DNA of 64,000 nt from Halovulum dunhuangense (GTDB taxonomy: Bacteria > Pseudomonadota > Alphaproteobacteria > Rhodobacterales > Rhodobacteraceae): contig NZ_JABFBC010000001.1 of assembly GCF_013093415.1 (NCBI RefSeq), forward strand, positions 372,001 through 436,000, given 5' to 3'. Positions 2,528 to 48,830 of the stretch are shown here, in pieces (the first letter of the stretch is position 1; every line of letters starts with the position of its first letter). The notes beneath the pieces were generated by a model. The model was not told the origin of the DNA and ran no database searches. It was given only the letters and a program-made list of their open reading frames with translations. A program made the translations under genes and the position numbers.

Positions 2528-3550
2528 TCAGTTGCAGGGGGCGGGGCCGCCCGTCACGCCCTGGCAAAGGGCTTCCTGCGTGATCCACCCGGCATCCACG
2601 ACGACCGAGAGATTGTCCGCTGTGATCGGCACCGGGGCCAGGAACAGCGAGGTCATGGTGGTCCCGCCGGGCGAAGTCCACTCCGCCGCTCCCTCGATGT
2701 CGGCCATGGCGGTGCCGCCCGCCAGAGCAAGGGCGATCTCGCCCGCGGCGCGGCCCAGTTCGCGTGCGTCCTTCCACACCGAAACGGTCTGCGTGCCCTG
2801 CGCGATGCGGTTCAGCGCGGCATGGTCGCCGTCCTGACCCGACACCGGAACCACCAGGCCCTGTGCCTGAAGCGCCGCAACCGCGCCACCGGCGGTGCCG
2901 TCGTTCGAGGCGACGACCGCGTCCACGTCGTTGTTGTTGGCGGTCAGGATCTGTTCCATGTTGCGCTGCGCGTTGGCGGGCAGCCACTGGTCGGTATAGG
3001 CTTCGCCGACGATGGTGATGCGCCCGGCGTCGATCGCCTCCTGCAACACCTCCTGCTGACCGCCGCGCAGGAAGTCTGCGTTCGGGTCGGTGGGCGAGCC
3101 CTTGATCATGACGTAGTTGCCTTCGGGCGCCGCTTCGAGCACGGCGCGGGCCTGCATGCGGCCGACCTCGACGTTGTCGAAGGTCAGGTAGAAGGCGCGC
3201 GGATCCTCGATCAGGCGGTCATAGGCGATCACCGGGATGCCTTCGTCCGCCGCGGCCTGGACCGCCGGGATGATGGCCTGGGTGTCCTGGGCCAGAACGA
3301 TCAGCGCGTCCACGCCCTGCGCCATGAGGCTTTCGATGTCGGACAGCTGCTTGGCCGAGGACGACTGCGCGTCGGCCGAGACGTATTCGGCACCGGCTGC
3401 CTCGAGCGCGGCGACGATGGCCGCCTCGTCGGTCTTCCAGCGCTCTTCCTGGAAGTTGGACCAGCTCACACCGACGGTGATGTCCTGCGCGAAGGCGGAC
3501 GGAGCGAAGGAAGCGGAGGCAAGGGCCGCCGCCATGAAAAGCTTACGCAT
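2528..3550 (-). CDS. xylF: periplasmic D-xylose-binding protein of ABC transporter
   Basis: Captures the sugar in the periplasm and delivers it to XylHG. 340 residues: signal peptide of about 21 residues ending AFA before QDITVGVSW, then a two-lobe periplasmic binding protein fold with features typical of XylF (VIAYDRLI near residue 115, a conserved SNDGTAGG stretch, and the QDGD motif near the hinge). The ATG at 3550 follows a clear GGGAGGAA ribosome site; an in-frame ATG 75 nt upstream would put extra residues before the signal peptide. First gene of the xyl operon, read divergently from the ROK regulator. Confidence 0.92.
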
Positions 3551-3637
3551 ATGTTCCTCCCATAAGGCGACACCCGGAATCTCGGGTGCGTGCGGTTTTC
3601 CCGCAACGATCGCGAGAATGCCCAAAATAATTCAGTT

Positions 3638-3654
3638 GTCAAAATTAATTTGAC
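3638..3654. promoter_or_regulatory. candidate operator in the xylF / ROK regulator intergenic region
   Basis: The only AT-rich patch in the 157-nt divergent spacer holds the inverted repeat GTCAAA-N5-TTTGAC. TTGAC hexamers occur within it on both strands (TTGACG forward at 3650, TTGACA reverse ending near 3637), so it would cover the -35 regions of both genes. It is a natural site for the adjacent ROK repressor, which would explain xylose induction and autoregulation. The palindrome is seen; the binding protein is inferred. Confidence 0.55.
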
Positions 3655-3707
3655 GCGGATCGCAAAATATCTGCTGATACCGCGAGCAGCCCGCAGGAGA
3701 TGGGCTG

Positions 3708-5024
3708 ATGATGGGCGGAAACGGCTGCTGCACGGAAGGCTTAAATTTGGCTGTCGAAAAAATTGAACCCGAGCGGCAGCTTGCGGACATGCTGGATGCG
3801 CAGCCCACGGATGGTTGTGGTCCGATCCGCAAGGGGCCCGGTGCGCCGCCGCTCAAGCAGCAGATCTTCGAGTGCATCCGCTCGGCCGGACGGATCGCGC
3901 GGGTCGATGTGGCAAAGGAACTGGGCGTCAGCGCCGGATCCGTCACCACCCTGTCTTCGGAACTGATTCGCGATGGCTTCCTGATCGAGGCCGAGGGACC
4001 GCCACGCGACACCGGCCGTGGCCGCCCCCCTGTGGCGCTTGGTGTGCGTCCCGAAGCAGGCCACGTCGTCGGCATCAAGCTGAGCGACGAGATGCACACC
4101 GCCGTGGTGGTCGATTTCGCTGGCCGCCCCGTTGCCGAGGCCAGCCTGCCCGCGGCGGTTACCGGCCGAAGCCTGGCGACCACGCTTGACGAGGCCGAGA
4201 CCATCTTCCGGATGGCGCTGGACCAGGCGAACCTGCCCGAGGGCGCGGTGCAGGCGGCAGGCGTCGGGCTGCCCGGGCTGGTCGATCATGTAGAGGGCAT
4301 GCTGCTCTGGTCGCCGATCTTCCGCGACCGGCGAGTGCCGCTCAGGTCCATGCTGGCCGACCGCCTGGGCCTGCGGGTACAGATCGACAACGATGTGAAC
4401 CTGCTGACGCTGGCCGAGCTATGGTACGGCTCCGGCCGTGCGCTGTCGAATTTTGCCGTGGTCACGATCGAGCAGGGCGTCGGCATGGGGCTGGTGCTGG
4501 GTGACAAGCTCTATCGCGGCGCGCATGGCTATGGCACCGAGTTGGGCCATACCAAGGTGCAACTCGACGGGGCGCTGTGCCGATGCGGCCAGCGCGGCTG
4601 CCTCGAGGCCTATGTCTCGGATTACGCGCTGGTGCGCGAGGCGACCGCGGCGCTGGGGCTTTGGGGGCGCGCCCCCGGTTCAACGCGGGTGCTGCTGGAG
4701 GCGCTGTTCGACGAGGCCAAGGCCGGCAACGAGGCGGCGCGCAGCATCTTCCGCCGGGCCGGCCGGTTCCTGTCGGTGGGACTTGCCAATGTCGTGACGC
4801 TGTTCGATCCGCCGCTGGTGATCCTGTCCGGGGCACGGATGCGCTACGACTATCTTTATGCCTCGGAGATGCTGGAAGAGGCGCGGCGCCTGACGCTGGA
4901 CCAGGGTCGCCCGGCAGCCAGGGTCGAGATCCACGCCTGGGGCGACTGGGTCTGGGCGCGGGGCGCCGCCACCCTTGCGCTGGCGGACCTGACCGACGTG
5001 CTGATCTCCGGGGAGGCCGCATGA
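3708..5024 (+). CDS. xylR: ROK-family transcriptional repressor of the xyl operon
   Basis: 438 residues. The N-terminal part (about 45-100) is a winged helix-turn-helix (QQIFECIRSAGRIARVDVAK...SVTTLSSELI). The rest is a sugar-kinase-like ROK domain with the zinc-binding signature CRCGQRGCLEAY near residue 295. ROK repressors of this layout (XylR, NagC, Mlc) release DNA on sensing a sugar; divergence from xylF points to xylose. AGGAGAT precedes the ATG at 3708. The stop overlaps the next gene (ATGA). Confidence 0.85.
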   Translation: MMGGNGCCTEGLNLAVEKIEPERQLADMLDAQPTDGCGPIRKGPGAPPLKQQIFECIRSAGRIARVDVAKELGVSAGSVTTLSSELIRDGFLIEAEGPPRDTGRGRPPVALGVRPEAGHVVGIKLSDEMHTAVVVDFAGRPVAEASLPAAVTGRSLATTLDEAETIFRMALDQANLPEGAVQAAGVGLPGLVDHVEGMLLWSPIFRDRRVPLRSMLADRLGLRVQIDNDVNLLTLAELWYGSGRALSNFAVVTIEQGVGMGLVLGDKLYRGAHGYGTELGHTKVQLDGALCRCGQRGCLEAYVSDYALVREATAALGLWGRAPGSTRVLLEALFDEAKAGNEAARSIFRRAGRFLSVGLANVVTLFDPPLVILSGARMRYDYLYASEMLEEARRLTLDQGRPAARVEIHAWGDWVWARGAATLALADLTDVLISGEAA

Positions 5025-6544
5025 TGCGTGCGGCGCTTTTCCTGCTGTTGTGGCCTGCCGTCCTTCAGGCCGGGCCGCGTTTCCAGGATGTGTCGGCGGA
5101 TCTTCCGGTTGCCCATGTCTATGACGGCGGGTGGGAGCATTTCGTCGGCGGCGGCGTCGCCGTGTTCGACTGCAACGGCGATGCCTTGCCCGAATTCCTG
5201 GCCGCGGGCGGCGAGAACCCGGCGCGGTTGTTCGTGAACCGGGGCGGGATGGCGTTTGTCCTTGGAAACGGTATCCCGCAGCTTGATGGAGTGACCGGGG
5301 CCTATCCGCTGGACATCGACTCCGACGGGCTGCTCGACCTGGCGGTGCTTCGCGTGGGGCCGAACCTGCTGCTGAAGGGCATGGGCGACTGCCGCTTCGA
5401 GGATCGCACCACTGAGTGGGGCTTCGATCCGGGCGACCGCTGGTCGACCGCCTTCTCCGCGACCTGGGAGCCGGGGCAGGACTGGCCGACGCTCGCCGTT
5501 GGAAACTACGTCGACCGCAGCGATCCTGCGGGGCCGTTCGAGGCCTGCGACGCAAACACCCTGCACCGGCCGGACGGGACGGGATACGCCACCCCCATCC
5601 TGCTGGAGCCCGGGTTCTGTGCGCTGTCGATCCTGTTTTCGGACCGGATGCTGACGGGCCGCGCGGATCTGCGTGTGTCGAATGACCGCCACTACTATGT
5701 CCGTGGCGGGTCCGAGCAGATGTGGCGGATGGAGCCGCTTGCCCTGATGGGCCCCGAGGAGGGTTGGCAGCCCATCTCCATCTGGGGCATGGGGATCGCC
5801 AGCCGCGACCTGAACGGCGACCGCCTGCCGGAAGTGGTACTGACATCCATGGGCGACCAGCTGATGCTGATCGCCCAGCCCGACGGCAGCTATCGCGGCG
5901 CGCCCTATGACATTGGCACCTATGCCCAACGCCCGCATGTTGGCGATGATGGGCGGCCCGCGACGGGCTGGCATGCCGAGTTCGCCGATGTGGACAATGA
6001 CGGGCGCGACGACCTGTTCATTGCCAAGGGCAATGTGGACCAGATGCCGACCAACGCGATGCGGGACCCGAACAACCTGCTGATGCAAGGGCCGGATGGC
6101 CGTTTCACCGAGGCGTCGGTCGAGGCGGGCGTCGCCACGGTCGAGCGTGCGCGCGGCGCGTCGCTGGCGGATTTCGACGGCGACGGGCGGCTCGACCTGG
6201 TCGTCGTCAACCGCCGGGCGCCGCTTGAGCTGTACCGGAACGTCACCTCCGACACCGGCAACTGGCTGGCGCTGGAGCCGCGGCAGGCCGGGCCGAACGG
6301 CTTTGCGGTCGGCGCCTTCCTCGAGGTCGAGACGCCCGGTGGCGTCACGCACCTGCGCGAGATCACGGTGGGCGGCGGCCATGTCGGCGGGCAGGCCGGG
6401 CCGCAGCATTTCGGGCTTGGGCCAGACACTGCGGCAAAGGTCCGGGTGCGCTGGCCCGATGGCGGCGTGTCGGACTGGGTGGGGGTTGAGGCGAACCGCC
6501 GCCTCTCGCTGTGGCGCGACGGTGCCGGGCTGGACCTGCGCTAG
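5021..6544 (+). CDS. exported CRTAC1-like protein with FG-GAP/VCBS repeats and ASPIC/UnbV C-terminus
   Basis: 507 residues with a signal peptide (MMRAALFLLLWPAVLQA). It carries repeated acidic calcium-loop motifs typical of FG-GAP/VCBS beta-propeller blades: DCNGDALPE, DIDSDGLLDL, DLNGDRLPE, DVDNDGRDDL and DFDGDGRLDL. The last ~80 residues resemble the ASPIC/UnbV domain (VGAFLEVETPGG, VRWPDGG). Function is unknown; such proteins are extracytoplasmic and bind calcium. The ATG overlaps the xylR stop (ATGA), so it may be co-transcribed with xylR. Its 3' end overlaps by 4 nt the convergent MauG-like gene; this pairing may be functional. Confidence 0.8.
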   Translation: MMRAALFLLLWPAVLQAGPRFQDVSADLPVAHVYDGGWEHFVGGGVAVFDCNGDALPEFLAAGGENPARLFVNRGGMAFVLGNGIPQLDGVTGAYPLDIDSDGLLDLAVLRVGPNLLLKGMGDCRFEDRTTEWGFDPGDRWSTAFSATWEPGQDWPTLAVGNYVDRSDPAGPFEACDANTLHRPDGTGYATPILLEPGFCALSILFSDRMLTGRADLRVSNDRHYYVRGGSEQMWRMEPLALMGPEEGWQPISIWGMGIASRDLNGDRLPEVVLTSMGDQLMLIAQPDGSYRGAPYDIGTYAQRPHVGDDGRPATGWHAEFADVDNDGRDDLFIAKGNVDQMPTNAMRDPNNLLMQGPDGRFTEASVEAGVATVERARGASLADFDGDGRLDLVVVNRRAPLELYRNVTSDTGNWLALEPRQAGPNGFAVGAFLEVETPGGVTHLREITVGGGHVGGQAGPQHFGLGPDTAAKVRVRWPDGGVSDWVGVEANRRLSLWRDGAGLDLR

Positions 6545-25533: not shown

Positions 25534-25623
25534 GGCAAAGCGGCTTTGCCGATTCCGGGGCTGTCGTCCATGGGCTGATCGGTTATTTATCAATCATCGC
25601 TTCGGCGATTGCCCGTTCCGGGC
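25534..25623 (+). other. three hairpins in the LysR 3' region
   Basis: Between the LysR stop and its terminator lie GGCAAAG-CGG-CTTTGCC (25534-25550), ATCGC-TTCG-GCGAT (25596-25609) and GCCCG-TTC-CGGGC (25611-25623). No coding region is seen. This could be a structured 3' UTR or a small RNA ending at the terminator at 25641. Confidence 0.4.
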
Positions 25624-25640
25624 ATTTCCTCCCTAGACTT

Positions 25641-25669
25641 GGGCCGCAGTTTTGCGGCCCATTTTTTTT
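25641..25669 (+). terminator. intrinsic terminator after the LysR pair
   Basis: GGGCCGCA-GTTT-TGCGGCCC, a perfect 8-bp stem, followed by A and eight T residues. Forward direction. Confidence 0.88.
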
Positions 25670-25677
25670 GCCCGTTC

Positions 25678-43478: not shown

Positions 43479-44066
43479 ATGATCGACTTCCGCAGGACAG
43501 AGCGCATCCTTGGACGTACGGCGCTCGCGGCGCTTGCGGTGCTTGCGGCTGTGGTGATCTGGACCGTGCGTCCGTGGTCCGGGGATCCGGTGGCCCTGCG
43601 GCCCGATACCGGGGCTGCGGCGCGCGACTTGTCCGAGCCCGAGATGGCGGAGGTCCTGATCGCCCTTCTGACCCGCGTCTACGCCGCCTTCGGGCAGGAG
43701 GAAGAGGGCGCGATCTATGACGGCCTTGTCGCCGCCGTCGCGCCCGGTCTGGTAACGGATCTCTATCTCCAGCGCCGCGCGGCGCAGGTGAACGAGCCGC
43801 CCGAAATGGCCGGCAGCGCCGAAATCCTGGACGTGACGCTGGACGAGATGACCCTGCTTGGACGCACCGCGGACGGCTACCGTCTCGATGCGACCTGGAC
43901 GGTCATCGGCATCCTGGGCCACGAGGATCACCGGCATGAACGGGTGAACCGCTATTCCGCGACCATGACGCTGGGCCCTGCCGCGGGCGAGTGGCGGCTG
44001 ACGGCCTTCGATCTGAACCAGGTGCGCCGGCAGGACGTGCCGCTTTTCCTGGACATGCTGCAATGA
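43479..44066 (+). CDS. membrane-anchored protein of unknown function, first gene of metal-type ABC operon
   Basis: 195 residues: one N-terminal membrane helix (about 12-32, ALAALAVLAAVVIWTV), then a periplasmic domain of mixed structure (ILDVTLDEMTLLGRTADGYR, WTVIGILGHEDHRHERVNRY). No family recognised. A small His cluster, HEDHRHE at ~147, is notable given the context. An ATG 27 nt upstream is possible. Stop overlaps the ATPase gene (ATGA), so it is probably the operon head and may be a helper subunit. Confidence 0.65.
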   Translation: MIDFRRTERILGRTALAALAVLAAVVIWTVRPWSGDPVALRPDTGAAARDLSEPEMAEVLIALLTRVYAAFGQEEEGAIYDGLVAAVAPGLVTDLYLQRRAAQVNEPPEMAGSAEILDVTLDEMTLLGRTADGYRLDATWTVIGILGHEDHRHERVNRYSATMTLGPAAGEWRLTAFDLNQVRRQDVPLFLDMLQ

Positions 44067-44728
44067 TCCGCGCCGAGCATCTGCACTTCGCCCATCCCGG
44101 CGGCGGCTTCCGGCTGGAAATCCCGCATCTCAACGTCGAGGCCGGAGAGCGTGTCGCCGTGGTCGGCCCGTCCGGCACCGGCAAGACGACGCTCCTGAAC
44201 CTCGTCGCCGGCATCCTTCTGCCCGGGCGGGGGCGGCTGGTGGTCCATGACACGGAACTGGCACGCCTGTCGGATGCACGGCGACGCGCGTTCCGTATCA
44301 ACACCATCGGCTTCATCTTCCAGAATTTCGAACTGGTCGACTACCTGACCGCCGCCGAGAACATCCTCTACCCCTATCGCATCACGGACAGCCTGCAGCT
44401 GGATCGTGCCGTGCGCAGCCGGGCCGAGGAACTGGCCGCCGCGGTGGGCCTGTCGGACAAGCTGGGGCGCAAGCCCTCGGCGCTCAGCCAGGGCGAGAAG
44501 CAGCGCGTGGCGATCTGCCGGGCGCTGGTCACGCGGCCCGCGCTTCTGCTGGCGGACGAGGCGACGGGCAATCTCGACCCGGACAACAAGGAACTGATTC
44601 TCGACCTGCTGTTCGCTCAGGCCGCAGCCGAGGGGGCGACGCTTCTGGCGGTGACGCATGACCACGCGCTGCTGCCGCGCTTCGACCGGGTGGTCGATTT
44701 CGCCGCCTTCCGGACAAGGGCTGCCTGA
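44063..44728 (+). CDS. ABC transporter ATP-binding protein, LolD/MacB type
   Basis: 221 residues. Walker A GPSGTGKTT, signature LSQGEKQRV (Q replaces the usual first G of LSGGQ), Walker B LLLADEATGNLD. It matches LolD/FtsE/MacB ATPases, which drive FtsX-type permeases. Overlaps the permease gene (TGATG) and the gene before it (ATGA). Confidence 0.86.
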   Translation: MIRAEHLHFAHPGGGFRLEIPHLNVEAGERVAVVGPSGTGKTTLLNLVAGILLPGRGRLVVHDTELARLSDARRRAFRINTIGFIFQNFELVDYLTAAENILYPYRITDSLQLDRAVRSRAEELAAAVGLSDKLGRKPSALSQGEKQRVAICRALVTRPALLLADEATGNLDPDNKELILDLLFAQAAAEGATLLAVTHDHALLPRFDRVVDFAAFRTRAA

Positions 44729-45903
44729 TGCGGGGGGCGTTCTTCCTTGCGCTGGCCTATCTGCGCCACAACGCGGGCCGCAGCCTGGTGCTGGTGCTGG
44801 CGCTTGCCCTGATCCTGTTCGTGCCGGTGGCCACGCGGCTGGTGCTGAACGCCGCCGAAGACCAGCTGACCGCCCGGGCCGAGGCGACGCCGCTGATGAT
44901 CGGCGCGCGGGGGTCGGCGCTGGACCTGATGATGAACGGGCTCTATTTCAGTGCCGACCGGCCCGAGCCGGTGTCGATGGCCGCCGTGGACAGGGTTTGG
45001 GACAGTGGCCTTGCCGTCGCGATCCCGCTCTATGTCCGCTACAGCGCGGGCGGCGCCCCGGTGGTGGGCACGACGCTGGACTACTTCGACTTTCGCGGGC
45101 TGGAATTCGCCGAAGGTCGCGGCCTTGCGGTGCTGGGCGAGGCGGTTCTTGGCGCCCGGGCCGCGCAACGTCTGGGCCTGCGGACCGGCGATCCGCTGAT
45201 TTCCGACCCCGAGAACCTGTTCGACCTTGCGGGCAGCTACCCGCTAGAGATGCTGGTCGTGGGCGTGCTTGCACCGACCGGCACCGCTGACGACGATGCG
45301 GTTTTCGTCGACATGAACACCGCCTGGGTGATCGAGGGCCTGGGCCATGGACATGACGACGTGATCGAGCAGGGCATGGCCGTCTCGGTTCAGGACGGCA
45401 ACGTGCTGGCCAATGCCGCGCTCACGCAGTTCACGCGCATCACGGCCGACAACATAGACAGTTTCCACTTCCACGGCGCGCCGGAAACCTATCCCGTTTC
45501 GTCGGTGATCGCGGTGCCCTGGGATGACCGCGCCGGCACCATCCTGCGCGGCCGCTATCTCGGCCCCGAAGAGCAGACGCGCATCGTTGTCCCCGCGCAG
45601 GTGGTCGAGGGGTTGTTGCAGACCATCTTCCGCATCGGACGGGTGCTGGACGCGGTGTTCGTGATTGTCGGCGCCGCTGCGCTGATCGCGCTGGGCCTTG
45701 CGGTGTTCCTGTCGCTGCGCCTGCGGGCGGACGAGATGGCGACCGCCACGCGGCTAGGCTGTCACCGCCTTGCGATTGCCCGGATGCTGTCGGCGGAAAT
45801 CATCCTGATCGTCGTCGCGGCACTGTCAGTTGCAACCATATCCGTGCTGGTTACGTTGCCTTACATGAATGACGTTGCCGTCTGGCTGGTCACCAATGCG
45901 TAA
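44728..45903 (+). CDS. FtsX-like ABC permease
   Basis: 391 residues: N-terminal helix (~15-37), a large periplasmic domain (~40-295), helix 2 (~304-325), cytoplasmic coupling segment RADEMATATRLGC, helix 3 (~350-372) and only ~18 more residues. MacB/FtsX permeases have four helices; the last one appears absent. Works with the LolD-like ATPase. Such pairs transmit force to or from periplasmic partners, which here would be the metal-binding-type proteins that follow. Confidence 0.78.
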   Translation: MRGAFFLALAYLRHNAGRSLVLVLALALILFVPVATRLVLNAAEDQLTARAEATPLMIGARGSALDLMMNGLYFSADRPEPVSMAAVDRVWDSGLAVAIPLYVRYSAGGAPVVGTTLDYFDFRGLEFAEGRGLAVLGEAVLGARAAQRLGLRTGDPLISDPENLFDLAGSYPLEMLVVGVLAPTGTADDDAVFVDMNTAWVIEGLGHGHDDVIEQGMAVSVQDGNVLANAALTQFTRITADNIDSFHFHGAPETYPVSSVIAVPWDDRAGTILRGRYLGPEEQTRIVVPAQVVEGLLQTIFRIGRVLDAVFVIVGAAALIALGLAVFLSLRLRADEMATATRLGCHRLAIARMLSAEIILIVVAALSVATISVLVTLPYMNDVAVWLVTNA

Positions 45904-45912
45904 GGATTACTC

Positions 45913-46671
45913 ATGACAAAACGCCTTCTCCTGCTGACTGCCGCCCTTCTGCCCGCGCCGGCGCTTGCCCATTTCGGCTTGATCCTGCCGCCTGCGTCCA
46001 TGGTCGAGCAGGAGGATGGCCGTAGCATCGACGTGACCTTCGCCTTCCTGCACCCGTTCGAGCAGTACGGCATGGAACTGGCGCGACCCGAAAGCGTCGT
46101 GGTCCACAGCGGGGGCGAGACCACCGACATCACCGCCAGCCTTTCGCCGACCCAGGTCTTCGGCGAGGCGGCCTATACCGCCACGATCGAGTTGGGCCGC
46201 CCCGGCGCCTATGCCATCGCGATGAGCCCGCAGCCCTACTGGGAACCGGCCGAGGACTCCTACATCATCCACTACACCAAGACCTATGTCGCGGCCTTCG
46301 GCGATGACGAGGGCTGGGATGCGGAACTGGGTCTTCCGACAGAGATCATTCCGCTGAGCAAGCCCCTGGGCCTGTGGGAGGGCAACGTCTTCCAGGGGAT
46401 CGTCCACCGCGACGGCCAGCCGGTGCCCTATGCCGAGGTCGAGATCGAGAAGTGGAACACCGACAACGTGCCTGCCCCGTCCGACCTGATGATCACCCAG
46501 ACCATAAAGGCCGATGCGAACGGGGTCTTTACTTACGCGGTGCCGGATGACGGCTGGTGGGGCTTTGCCGCGCTCAGCGAGGCGGATTACACGCTGGCGC
46601 GGGATGGCGTGGAAAAGCCCGTCGAGCTGGGCGCCGTCATCTGGGTCAAGTTCGAGGAATGGGACGACTGA
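45913..46671 (+). CDS. DUF4198 periplasmic protein (NikK-like)
   Basis: 252 residues. Signal peptide of ~19 residues ending ALA, leaving mature N-terminal His20 (HFGLILPPAS). DUF4198 proteins occur with nickel/cobalt uptake genes (NikK) and copper-type loci; beta-rich domain with KTYVAAFGDDEGW and PVPYAEVEIE. An N-terminal His can form a metal-binding histidine brace. Starts 9 nt after the permease gene with an AAGGA site. Confidence 0.78.
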   Translation: MTKRLLLLTAALLPAPALAHFGLILPPASMVEQEDGRSIDVTFAFLHPFEQYGMELARPESVVVHSGGETTDITASLSPTQVFGEAAYTATIELGRPGAYAIAMSPQPYWEPAEDSYIIHYTKTYVAAFGDDEGWDAELGLPTEIIPLSKPLGLWEGNVFQGIVHRDGQPVPYAEVEIEKWNTDNVPAPSDLMITQTIKADANGVFTYAVPDDGWWGFAALSEADYTLARDGVEKPVELGAVIWVKFEEWDD

Positions 46672-46672
46672 C

Positions 46673-47002
46673 ATGCGCCGCCTGCTGCTCTCGCTGCCGC
46701 TGATGCTTGCCCTCGCCCTGCCTGCGACCGCTCATCGGCTGGTCGTCTATGCCCATGTCGAGGGCGGGGAGATCGTGGTGGAGGCGAAGTTCTCCAACGG
46801 AAACCCCGCGAAGCTGGGCGAGATCCGGGTGATCGACGCCGCCGCGGCCGAGCTGGCGGTACTGCCGCTCGATGATGATGGCGAGACGCGTTTCGCCATA
46901 CCGGCGGGGGCCGGGCAGGGCGTCACCGTCGAGGTGCGAACCGACGAGGGGCACGACGACTACTGGATCCTGTCGCCCGCCGACCTGGGAGTCCGTCAAT
47001 GA
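46673..47002 (+). CDS. small exported protein (NikL-like)
   Basis: 109 residues. Signal peptide ending PATA, leaving His21 at the mature N-terminus (HRLVVYAHVEGG). Beta-sandwich-like pattern VVEAKFSNGNPAKLGEIRV, FAIPAGAGQGVTVEVR. Resembles NikL-type small periplasmic proteins but lacks the C-terminal membrane helix they often have. One base after the DUF4198 gene; stop overlaps the ZnuA-like gene (ATGA). Confidence 0.62.
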   Translation: MRRLLLSLPLMLALALPATAHRLVVYAHVEGGEIVVEAKFSNGNPAKLGEIRVIDAAAAELAVLPLDDDGETRFAIPAGAGQGVTVEVRTDEGHDDYWILSPADLGVRQ

Positions 47003-47877
47003 AACGCATCGCGCTGACCATCGCCCTTCTTGCCCTGTCGGGGCCGGCGCAGGCCGACGGACCGCGTATCGCCGCGGTCAGCGGCCCGCTTGCCGACTGG
47101 GCGGCGACGCTTGCCGGGGATGCCGCCGAAGTGGTGTATCCGGTGCCCGAGGGCGTCGATCCGATGTTCTGGCGGCCCGCGATCGCTGACATCAGCACGA
47201 TCCAGTCCGCCGACCTGATCCTTCTGAATGGCGCGGGCTTTGCGCAATGGACGGCGAAGGTGTCTCTGCCGCGCGCGCGCACCATCGTCACATCCGCCGC
47301 GTTCGAGGGCGCGCTGATCGAGATCCAGACCGGCGTCACCCATTCCCACGGCGCCGAGGGCGAGCATTCCCACACCGGGACCGCGCCGCAGACCTGGCTC
47401 GATTTCGGCCAGGCGAAGGCGCAGGTCGAGGCAACCGCGCAGGGCCTGAACCGCGTGCTGCCCGGTGAGGCCGACGCGATCGCCGCGAATGCGGCTGCGC
47501 TGATCGCGGAACTCGACGCGCTCGACCAGCGCGCGGCGTCGCTGGGCGCGCAGCTCGAGGGGCGGACCGTGTTCGCCGCCGTGCCGGGGCTCGAGTATTT
47601 CGACCGGGCCTATGGCATCGGGCTGGTGACGCTTGGCTGGGACGCTGGCAATGCCGCGACAGACGCGGAATGGGCCGCGCTGGATGCGCAATTGGCCACC
47701 GCGACGGCGCCGCTGTTTCTGTGGCAGGAAGCCCCATCCGACGCCGCGGCCGTCGCGCTGTCAGGGCGCGGCGTGCCTTTCGCGGTGATCGACCCGGGCA
47801 CTGCAGCGACCCAGGGCTTCATCGCCCGGATGCAAGGCAATCTCGACAGTCTGGAGTCGGCGCTGGCCGGGCAGTGA
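46999..47877 (+). CDS. ZnuA-like periplasmic protein with altered metal site
   Basis: 292 residues, signal peptide of 19 residues, ZnuA/TroA two-lobe fold with the long helix. The three usual zinc histidines are replaced: Met56 in DPMFWRP (normally xHD), Gln131 in APQTWLD (normally HxWL), and Ala193 in TVFAAVPGLEYF (normally VFHDAYGYF). The Asp of IDPGT remains. A His loop HSHGAEGEHSH (115-125) is kept. So it probably does not carry zinc in the standard way. No znuB/znuC nearby. Confidence 0.78.
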   Translation: MKRIALTIALLALSGPAQADGPRIAAVSGPLADWAATLAGDAAEVVYPVPEGVDPMFWRPAIADISTIQSADLILLNGAGFAQWTAKVSLPRARTIVTSAAFEGALIEIQTGVTHSHGAEGEHSHTGTAPQTWLDFGQAKAQVEATAQGLNRVLPGEADAIAANAAALIAELDALDQRAASLGAQLEGRTVFAAVPGLEYFDRAYGIGLVTLGWDAGNAATDAEWAALDAQLATATAPLFLWQEAPSDAAAVALSGRGVPFAVIDPGTAATQGFIARMQGNLDSLESALAGQ

Positions 47878-47892
47878 CCCGGCCCGACCGGC

Positions 47893-48687
47893 TTAGCCGC
47901 CGATTTCGTAGGTCAGCGCCGCCCACAGCGTCTGCCAGTGGGCACGGGTAACTTCACGGATGCGCGTGTCGGGTTCGGAGATGTGGACCGCGTTGACCAT
48001 GAAGGCGCCGGGCTGACGGGGAACGCTCACTTCTCCGTTCGCGTCTGTGCGCAGCTTCAGCTCCTCCACCTCGGTACCGACCTTGTGGAAGACGAAAACC
48101 GGCGCGCCGGCTTCCGGCGCGCCGCGGAACAGCAGCCGGAAGCGCATGTCGCCATTGTCGGTGTAGGGATTGGTCAGCGCCACCAGCTCGTAGGACATGC
48201 CCACCGCCCTGTCCGATCCCGCGCCGGAGCCGACGCCGACCAGCGTCTTGACGAAGCGGAAATAGACCTCGCGGATATCCTCCTTGGGAAAACCCTTGGC
48301 GGCATGCTCTTCCAGCGTCGCCTCCAGACGCTTGCCTTCGAGAAAGATCTTGAACTTCGCCAGGGTAGGGTAGCTGAGCGTCGCAGCGCCCGACGCGTGA
48401 TAGACCACGTTCAGCCCTTCGGCCAAAGGCGCCGCCTGGATCGCGGGCTTCATGCCCAGCGTGCCAGTCACGGCGGCACGGGTGTCGCCCGCAAAGATCC
48501 CGGACTGGCGGTAGCCCTGCTCGGAATAGCCGTACTCGATCCCGAAGAAGTTCTCGCCGTTGATGGCCCGGGCGCGGATCTGCCCGTCCGGCGCGATGGT
48601 GTAGTCCTCGGGCTCGAACCAGAACTCATGTGCCGCCACCGGCAGCGTGGGCAGCACAAGGGCAAGGGCGAGAATGGCAAGGCGCAT
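47893..48687 (-). CDS. second DUF4198 periplasmic protein
   Basis: 264 residues. Signal peptide of ~19 residues ending VAA, leaving mature His20 in HEFWFEPEDY, a hallmark start of DUF4198 proteins. Middle YELVALTNPYTDNGDMRFR and C-terminal LRTDANGEVSVPRQPGAFMV are beta-rich. Reverse strand, convergent with the ZnuA-like gene (15 nt apart), so a separate transcript. AAGGAT ribosome site at 48687; a further ATG upstream would precede the signal peptide. Confidence 0.78.
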   Translation of the reverse strand: MRLAILALALVLPTLPVAAHEFWFEPEDYTIAPDGQIRARAINGENFFGIEYGYSEQGYRQSGIFAGDTRAAVTGTLGMKPAIQAAPLAEGLNVVYHASGAATLSYPTLAKFKIFLEGKRLEATLEEHAAKGFPKEDIREVYFRFVKTLVGVGSGAGSDRAVGMSYELVALTNPYTDNGDMRFRLLFRGAPEAGAPVFVFHKVGTEVEELKLRTDANGEVSVPRQPGAFMVNAVHISEPDTRIREVTRAHWQTLWAALTYEIGG

Positions 48688-48830
48688 GGGGGATCCTTCC
48701 TGCGGTCGTGTCTTCACATTCTTTCAGCTTGGTCCGCGTGCTGCAATCGCCGGTTGCCCGCGGCCATGTCGGGCATGTATCCCTGAGCCCGAAGCCGTCC
48801 ACCACAACAGGCAAACGGGACCACAGGCGC

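Follow-up and report, generated by a model that had tools for sequence, protein, structure and literature searches.

Permeases of the MacB/LolC/HrtB-like class act on periplasmic or membrane substrates. Accounts differ of how ATP-binding cassette (ABC) machines with FtsX/MacB-type permeases act on metals: in Vibrio, Zrg is regarded as a system for acquiring zinc, whereas a related Pseudomonas operon is a proposed metallophore-cobalt exporter. In a znuA mutant of V. cholerae, loss of zrgA is reported to lower zinc-limited growth and survival further (PMC9820375), and deletion of zrgA in V. parahaemolyticus is described as impairing zinc-limited growth (PMC9817125). For the P. aeruginosa operon PA4063-PA4066, which has a MacB-type ABC pair, one report proposes pyochelin-cobalt export (PMC11481552). 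NikKLMQO is presented as a nickel transporter in Synechocystis (PMC5904137), and a DUF4198 protein of Ideonella is reported to bind nickel with a dissociation constant of 18 nM, using its N-terminal histidine as a ligand (PMC12537917). According to a 2009 survey, NikK/NikL orthologues also occur without NikMQO, and the neighbourhoods it describes gave no clue to their role (PMC2667541). Here we examine a gene cluster in a 64,000-nucleotide stretch of the Halovulum dunhuangense genome (contig NZ_JABFBC010000001.1, positions 372,001 to 436,000; the whole stretch is called the window), in which an engine of the FtsX/MacB type is joined to ZnuA-, NikK- and NikL-type parts. We give about even odds (a probability near 0.5) to the reading that the cluster encodes an ATP-driven FtsX/LolD-type (type VII) machine that hands over a divalent metal in the periplasm for its acquisition, with nickel, zinc and cobalt as the likeliest metals.

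The cluster consists of six co-directional genes (43479-47877), which follow each other with overlaps or gaps of -4, -1, +9, +1 and -4 nucleotides, and a convergent second DUF4198 gene adjoins it. Eight proteins of the window were scanned against Pfam at the locus, NCBIfam was used in addition, and the ends of signal peptides were read by eye. The features are as follows, with E-values for the families.

43479..44066, + strand: orf1; one N-terminal hydrophobic segment and a predicted NTF2-like domain; invariant H148, H151 and H153 (GHxxHxHxRxNxY)
44063..44728, + strand: LolD/FtsE-type ATPase; PF00005 (ABC_tran), 2.3e-30
44728..45903, + strand: FtsX/MacB-type permease; PF12704 (MacB_PCD), 1.8e-10; three hydrophobic segments; periplasmic H207-G-H209 and H247-F-H249-G
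45913..46671, + strand: NikK-like DUF4198 protein; PF10670, 1.2e-54; H20 after the signal peptide (by eye), H47 and H120
46673..47002, + strand: NikL-like small exported protein; NF058648, 3.9e-22, under the cut-off; H21 after the signal peptide (by eye) and H94
46999..47877, + strand: ZnuA-like protein; PF01297, 2.7e-36; fixed HSHGxxGxHSH loop; two canonical ligand histidines missing
47893..48687, - strand: second DUF4198 protein, a convergent accessory gene; PF10670, 8.1e-27; histidine after the signal peptide (by eye); ATG start at 48687, alternative longer GTG start at 48717

The cluster is conserved in relatives. When 60 genomes were searched, the permease was found with E <1e-80 in seven genomes besides the source genome. 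Five of the seven have the whole order orf1-ATPase-permease-NikK-NikL-ZnuA, and the other two keep orf1, the ATPase, the permease and the ZnuA-like gene. Scanning genome contigs with the permease alignment gave at least 449 relatives, and the best 80 loci were taken. After four duplicates (L033-L036) were dropped from 87 loci, 83 distinct loci remain; these are not all independent (e.g., three Mameliella loci are close kin, and L078 and L081 come from one bin). The ZnuA-like gene is present with the FtsX/LolD pair in 77 of the 83 loci (76 at a stricter score, L101 being cut). Among the six loci without it, L045, L047, L054 and L107 reach contig ends, while L076 and L113 do not. The ATPase gene lies within 600 nucleotides of the permease gene in 81 loci, and all six genes occur in the window's order in 44. 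With the same order in five of seven first relatives and in 44 of 83 loci, the arrangement is beyond chance. The sequence-only reading of the window had recognized six packed genes of these families and the DUF4198 gene facing them, which the coordinates and Pfam bear out, and had staked its proposal on conserved synteny, which proves strong.

Most of the carriers among these loci are Rhodobacterales; the others include Desulfobacterota-type bacteria as well as Gamma- and Betaproteobacteria. The locus also occurs on one short metagenome contig titled Rokubacteria and on one titled Fimbriimonadia; the latter (L067, 3.6 kb) groups with Desulfuromusa in the tree and may be misbinned. The distribution is patchy: 13 of 139 genomes in the family have the cluster (leaving out G068, at 82 bits), as do five of 398 in the phylum including the source genome, a count that may be low (four candidates were scored per genome). 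Two permease-bearing plasmids were found. The one of Methylomagnum has the fusion form described below, and that of Paracoccus liaowanqingii has the six genes in a changed order, together with a same-direction relative of the second DUF4198 gene. The second DUF4198 gene adjoins the cluster in three of the 83 other loci (L040, L042, and L044).

The ATPase has FtsE and LolD among its top NCBIfam models; the best 25 of its 193 matches are all under their own cut-offs. The permease model from AF2 (AlphaFold2) has a mean predicted local distance difference test score (pLDDT) of 87.7 and a predicted template modelling score (pTM) of 0.81, and is MacB/LolC/HrtB-like. It matches MacB (5gko) with a Foldseek value of 4e-9, VIA (5xu1_M) with Z 17.5 (305 aligned, root-mean-square deviation (rmsd) 8.0), LolCDE (9rld_E) with Z 16.1 (308 aligned, rmsd 10.2), and HrtBA (7w7a_B) with Z 15.9 (283 aligned, rmsd 7.3). 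The histidines of its two periplasmic motifs, HGH (H207 and H209) and HFHG (H247 and H249), are each kept in 0.99 of 89 aligned rows. Judged by hydropathy only, exactly three hydrophobic segments are found in 78 of 85 permeases of this type. In the remaining seven the extra segments lie inside the periplasmic domain or beside the second segment, and none of the 85 has a segment after the third. At least four segments are seen by the same measure in 15 of 16 comparison permeases; L012 has three. In the model, helix 347-390 extends to the C-terminus.

In the permease tree, the 28 sequences of this type and the 19 comparison permeases are fully split with support 100/100, the comparison side having long internal branches. 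Eleven of these 19 adjoin a ZrgA gene (that of L055 read by eye). Among the 21 weaker permease matches from the search of 60 genomes, 11 have a ZrgA gene no more than 1.5 kb away. Eight others have no such neighbour, and the remaining two seem to be fragments, placed on other contigs of G042. The comparison permeases align at about 4-195 and 280-373 of the new permease and mostly skip the segment with the HGH and HFHG motifs. Four of these comparison permeases, those of L017, L019, L024 and L028 on the Zrg side, have a long histidine-rich insert at the place of the HxH motifs, and their genomes have no ZrgA match. L013, L014, L022 and L030 form a further FtsX-type group with an NGH motif near the HGH place.

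The ZnuA-like protein differs from canonical ZnuA at its metal site. The four histidines of its loop are kept in 0.96 of 85 rows, a set that includes three canonical ZnuA sequences. Two columns that are histidine in all three canonical neighbours, and which we take to be ZnuA metal ligands, are histidine in 0 and 4 of 82 ZnuA-like members. Because these two ligands are missing in nearly all members, the protein is, as judged from its sequence, no ordinary metal substrate-binding protein (SBP). Two further ZnuA-family genes of the source genome, both on contig C2, score higher, and ABC-3 permease matches occur within 4 kb of them. A quick pattern search for a clear ligand motif in these two proteins recovered nothing, and we therefore do not term them canonical.

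Parts of the NikK/NikL type, known from the nickel energy-coupling factor (ECF) system, are by their sequences also present in the cluster, a point that is added to the sequence-only reading. H20, H47 and H120 of the NikK-like protein are each found in 0.98 of 55 rows. H21 of the NikL-like protein is found in all 52 rows and H94 in 0.98 of them. CbiM/NikM (PF01891) has no match in the source genome, so that these two proteins would not serve a NikM-type ECF transporter here.

The first gene, orf1, matches no Pfam family (best 0.094, under the cut-off), and its H148, H151 and H153 are invariant in all 79 rows. In 24 loci an exported protein of about 600 residues (the fusion or Ndom form), split over two frames in L062 and cut in L105, has orf1 as its C-terminal part. 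NikK is found in none of the 24 fusion loci and NikL in only one, L062. Conversely, the N-terminal domain of about 400 residues is found in none of 49 NikK-type loci. Note that kinship among loci inflates any p-value on this exclusion, and that nine other loci, some of them cut, have neither NikK nor the N-terminal domain. The fusion form occurs mostly outside Rhodobacterales, although L039, a Rhodobacterales genome, has it. The modelled fusion protein of L112 (pLDDT 80.4, pTM 0.61) resembles V. cholerae ZrgA at residues 218-374 (Z 10.1, 134 aligned, rmsd 4.3) and the Ang-1 metal domain at residues 218-387 (Z 9.6, 148 aligned, rmsd 5.7), with residues before 218 barely covered by the comparison. 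Residues 454-593 are NTF2-like (5d9r; Z 12.2, 128 aligned, rmsd 3.5), and it is from this homologous part that the fold of orf1 is predicted. Since NikK and the N-terminal domain never occur together, and given these fold likenesses, each form may rely on its own periplasmic metal-type proteins for one shared role. The idea that the membrane segment of orf1 stands in for a lost permease helix was dropped, because the Methylomagnum homologue shows no hydrophobic segment between its domains (by eye).

The proposal of a periplasmic metal machine starts from the gene content, linkage and conservation, from the predicted folds, and from the loss of the two canonical ligands. Near-invariant histidines are found in five components. 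Also in its favour are the close linkage of the ZnuA-like gene and the ATPase gene to the permease gene, the metal binding or transport reported for relatives of the helper proteins (PMC12537917, PMC5904137), the ZrgA- and Ang-1-like fold in the large protein, the nearness of Zrg permeases, the MacB/LolC/HrtB-like fold of the permease, and the metal genes near the cluster in several loci that are listed below. Metal handover for acquisition is favoured on three grounds: what is conserved suggests a metal, the class of engine suggests work in the periplasm and not through a channel, and the carriers suggest nickel, zinc or cobalt. The NikK-like and NikL-like proteins would capture periplasmic metal with their N-terminal histidines, and in the fusion form the large protein with its ZrgA/Ang-1-like domain would do so instead. 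The ZnuA-derived protein would then carry the metal, holding it on the fixed HxHGxxGxHxH loop that replaces the complete buried ZnuA site. ATP hydrolysis would shift the periplasmic domain of the permease, and the HGH and HFHG motifs might help to pass the metal from carrier to carrier. Both the direction of transfer and the identity of the metal are inferences.

Several observations weigh against this proposal. H195 is kept in 93% of the ZnuA-like rows but is Val in the window's own protein, and the Paracoccus plasmid member still has histidine at the second canonical site (by eye); the ligand set therefore varies. The small exported protein scores 79 bits against the NCBIfam NikL model, under the curated cut-off of 100. 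No sequence profile link between the large protein and ZrgA was obtained (hhalign 0.2%). Sequence kinship of the two is rejected on this value, and their resemblance is claimed for the fold alone. It is also reported in the 2009 survey that Ni-independent pathways were proposed for the orphan NikK/NikL (PMC2667541). Co-occurrence is of little help. Urease is found in 13 of 13 cluster genomes (again leaving out G068, 82 bits) and in 97 of 126 others, a weak association (p 0.07). No association is seen for CbiM (5 of 13 and 48 of 126) or for ZrgA over its cut-off (2 of 13 and 19 of 126). Finally, metal-responsive sites are not clearly enriched upstream of the cluster when patterns for Zur, NikR, Nur, Mur, Irr, RirA and CueR-type sites are scanned in 79 upstream regions (some cut by contig ends) and rescanned in 70. 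The rescan gave three Zur sites (2-7 in shuffles), no NikR site (0-1) and three Nur sites (0-3). No Zur-type site was found in the window with the motif applied, a gapped-word scan of 46 NikK-type upstream regions gave GC-rich words alone, and only L055 has a close Zur-like site, which is placed before a divergent zrg operon.

These results bear on other points of the sequence-only reading. It had proposed a look for Zur/Nur/CopR-type sites upstream, and the scans with these patterns brought out no clear enrichment of Zur, Nur or NikR sites, and nothing was found in favour of the lipoprotein-linked transfer that it suggested. Its view that ZnuB and NikM/NikQ/NikO are missing agrees with the scan, none of them being among the eight window proteins. 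Zrg, which it offered as a possible distant precedent, is the right one, given the ZrgA genes beside 11 of the 21 weaker permease matches. The metal reading itself is supported in part: an FtsX/LolD pair surrounded by metal-type proteins is indeed conserved as a cluster, while the ZnuA-fold protein cannot be taken as an ordinary metal SBP.

Another possibility is that the cluster is a transmembrane importer, in which the FtsX-type permease takes the place of ZnuB and moves metal from the ZnuA-like protein straight into the cytoplasm. The ZnuA-like gene does go with the permease in nearly all loci (77 of 83), and the zinc-limited growth defects reported for zrgA mutants of V. cholerae (with znuA lost) and V. 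parahaemolyticus (PMC9820375, PMC9817125) would fit it. The permease has three hydrophobic segments only, however, the ZnuA-like protein has lost two SBP ligands, and the genome already has ABC-3 permeases near its two higher-scoring ZnuA-family genes on contig C2. We know of no inward metal path in the MacB/LolC fold. Direct import is thus unlikely. A pump for export or detoxification of a metal or a metallophore-metal complex, as proposed for PA4063-PA4066 (PMC11481552), is more doubtful and would be rather surprising here: ZnuA, NikK and NikL are parts of uptake systems, and no membrane-fusion or outer-membrane family is found among the eight window proteins scanned.

Neighbouring genes were considered for the remaining explanations (70 of 157 listed open reading frames were scanned in Pfam). 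The machine might supply enzymes of the periplasm, or secreted ones, with their metal. In nine of the 18 Ndom loci whose upstream sequence reaches 1.5 kb or more, a metallo-beta-lactamase-fold gene stands upstream of the fusion gene on the same strand (L097 has one on the other strand), and the L108 copy (2912-4237) clears the NCBIfam GntH cut-off. In L103 an agmatinase-like gene (4596-5903) with a signal-like N-terminus separates the large orf1 fusion gene from that of the ATPase. In the Paracoccus liaowanqingii plasmid (L160 567-10050, NZ_CP040763.1), type II secretion genes gspG to gspD lead straight into the metal cluster, with gspD overlapping at its end with a DUF4198 gene. Against these examples, the metallo-beta-lactamase-fold gene is found in none of the 49 NikK-type loci, which are of the window's own type, gspD and gspG are found in none of 87 other loci searched (four of them duplicates), and no client enzyme is known; such metallation is an improbable function for the cluster. 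Least probable is a non-metal envelope machine of the FtsX type whose exported partners now bind something else. The incomplete ZnuA site, the upstream scans without a sign of metal regulation, and the suggested Ni-independence of orphan NikK/NikL (PMC2667541) would agree with it, but near-invariant histidine clusters occur in five components and metal genes are found near the cluster in several loci. By raw count, four of 49 NikK-type loci have them within 5 kb: an ordinary PF01297 gene in L053, L066 and L087, and a zrg operon in L055 (inspection by eye gave the zrgA of L055 and also a zur gene in L066). In the Methylomagnum ishizawai plasmid (L159 10834-13526), the other strand carries nikR and a TonB-dependent receptor gene no more than 3.5 kb from the cluster, which hints at nickel. 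NikR as a general partner is rejected, since it is found in none of 87 loci and in four of 17 genomes searched.

No Rfam family matches at its gathering score inside the cluster. Elsewhere in the window, a suhB/mmgR-type small RNA (25604-25675) is over the Rfam gathering score.

In the cluster an engine of the FtsX/MacB kind is combined with ZnuA- and NikK/NikL-type components, and the near-invariant residues of the cluster are targets for mutation. It supplies a testable context for NikK/NikL orthologues without NikMQO, to which the 2009 survey could assign no role by their neighbourhoods (PMC2667541). It is carried by environmental Rhodobacterales, which makes experimental tests practical. 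No published description of the cluster was found by title or abstract start among the matches listed by a search that left most subscription journals outside, which does not show its absence in print.

Compared with known systems, the cluster may work like a Zrg-type machine, yet it lacks features by which Zrg, ZnuABC and NikKMLQO are defined. With Zrg of Vibrio and PA4063-PA4066 of Pseudomonas it shares a separate FtsX/MacB-type permease, a LolD-type ATPase and exported metal-type proteins. The Zrg permeases are related and among the nearest relatives found, and in the fusion form one part of the large protein is similar in fold to ZrgA. In contrast, ZrgA (PF10986) has no match in the cluster or the source genome, the ZnuA-like protein being in its place, and the Pfam scan of the eight proteins gave no DUF3299 (ZrgE) match. 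The new permease forms its own clade outside the Zrg side of the tree, with HGH/HFHG motifs and no fourth hydrophobic segment. A NikK-like (DUF4198) protein and, with a score under the family cut-off, a NikL-like one are shared with the NikKMLQO nickel/cobalt ECF transporter, but no NikM, NikQ or NikO family occurs among the cluster proteins and no PF01891 in the genome. With ZnuABC and other cluster A-I metal importers only the family and fold of ZnuA are shared: the ABC-3 (ZnuB) permease is not in the cluster, the genome's ABC-3 matches being on contig C2, and the new protein has a histidine loop of fixed pattern while two canonical ligand histidines are gone. The MacB-like periplasmic core and the permease fold are those of type VII ABC systems (MacB, LolCDE, HrtBA, and FtsEX). 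These differ from the new permease, which by hydropathy has three hydrophobic segments instead of four and carries HxH motifs, and from the cluster as a whole, which has no membrane-fusion family among its scanned proteins and has a ZnuA-like partner. We tentatively suggest, with rather less assurance than for metal handover itself, that the cluster represents a distinct class of ABC metal machine, in which a ZnuA-fold protein, with an HxHGxxGxHxH loop in exchange for its complete buried site, and a three-helix FtsX permease with its own metal sites would use mechanical force, and no channel, to pass metal between periplasmic proteins, and in which orphan NikK/NikL would find a home.

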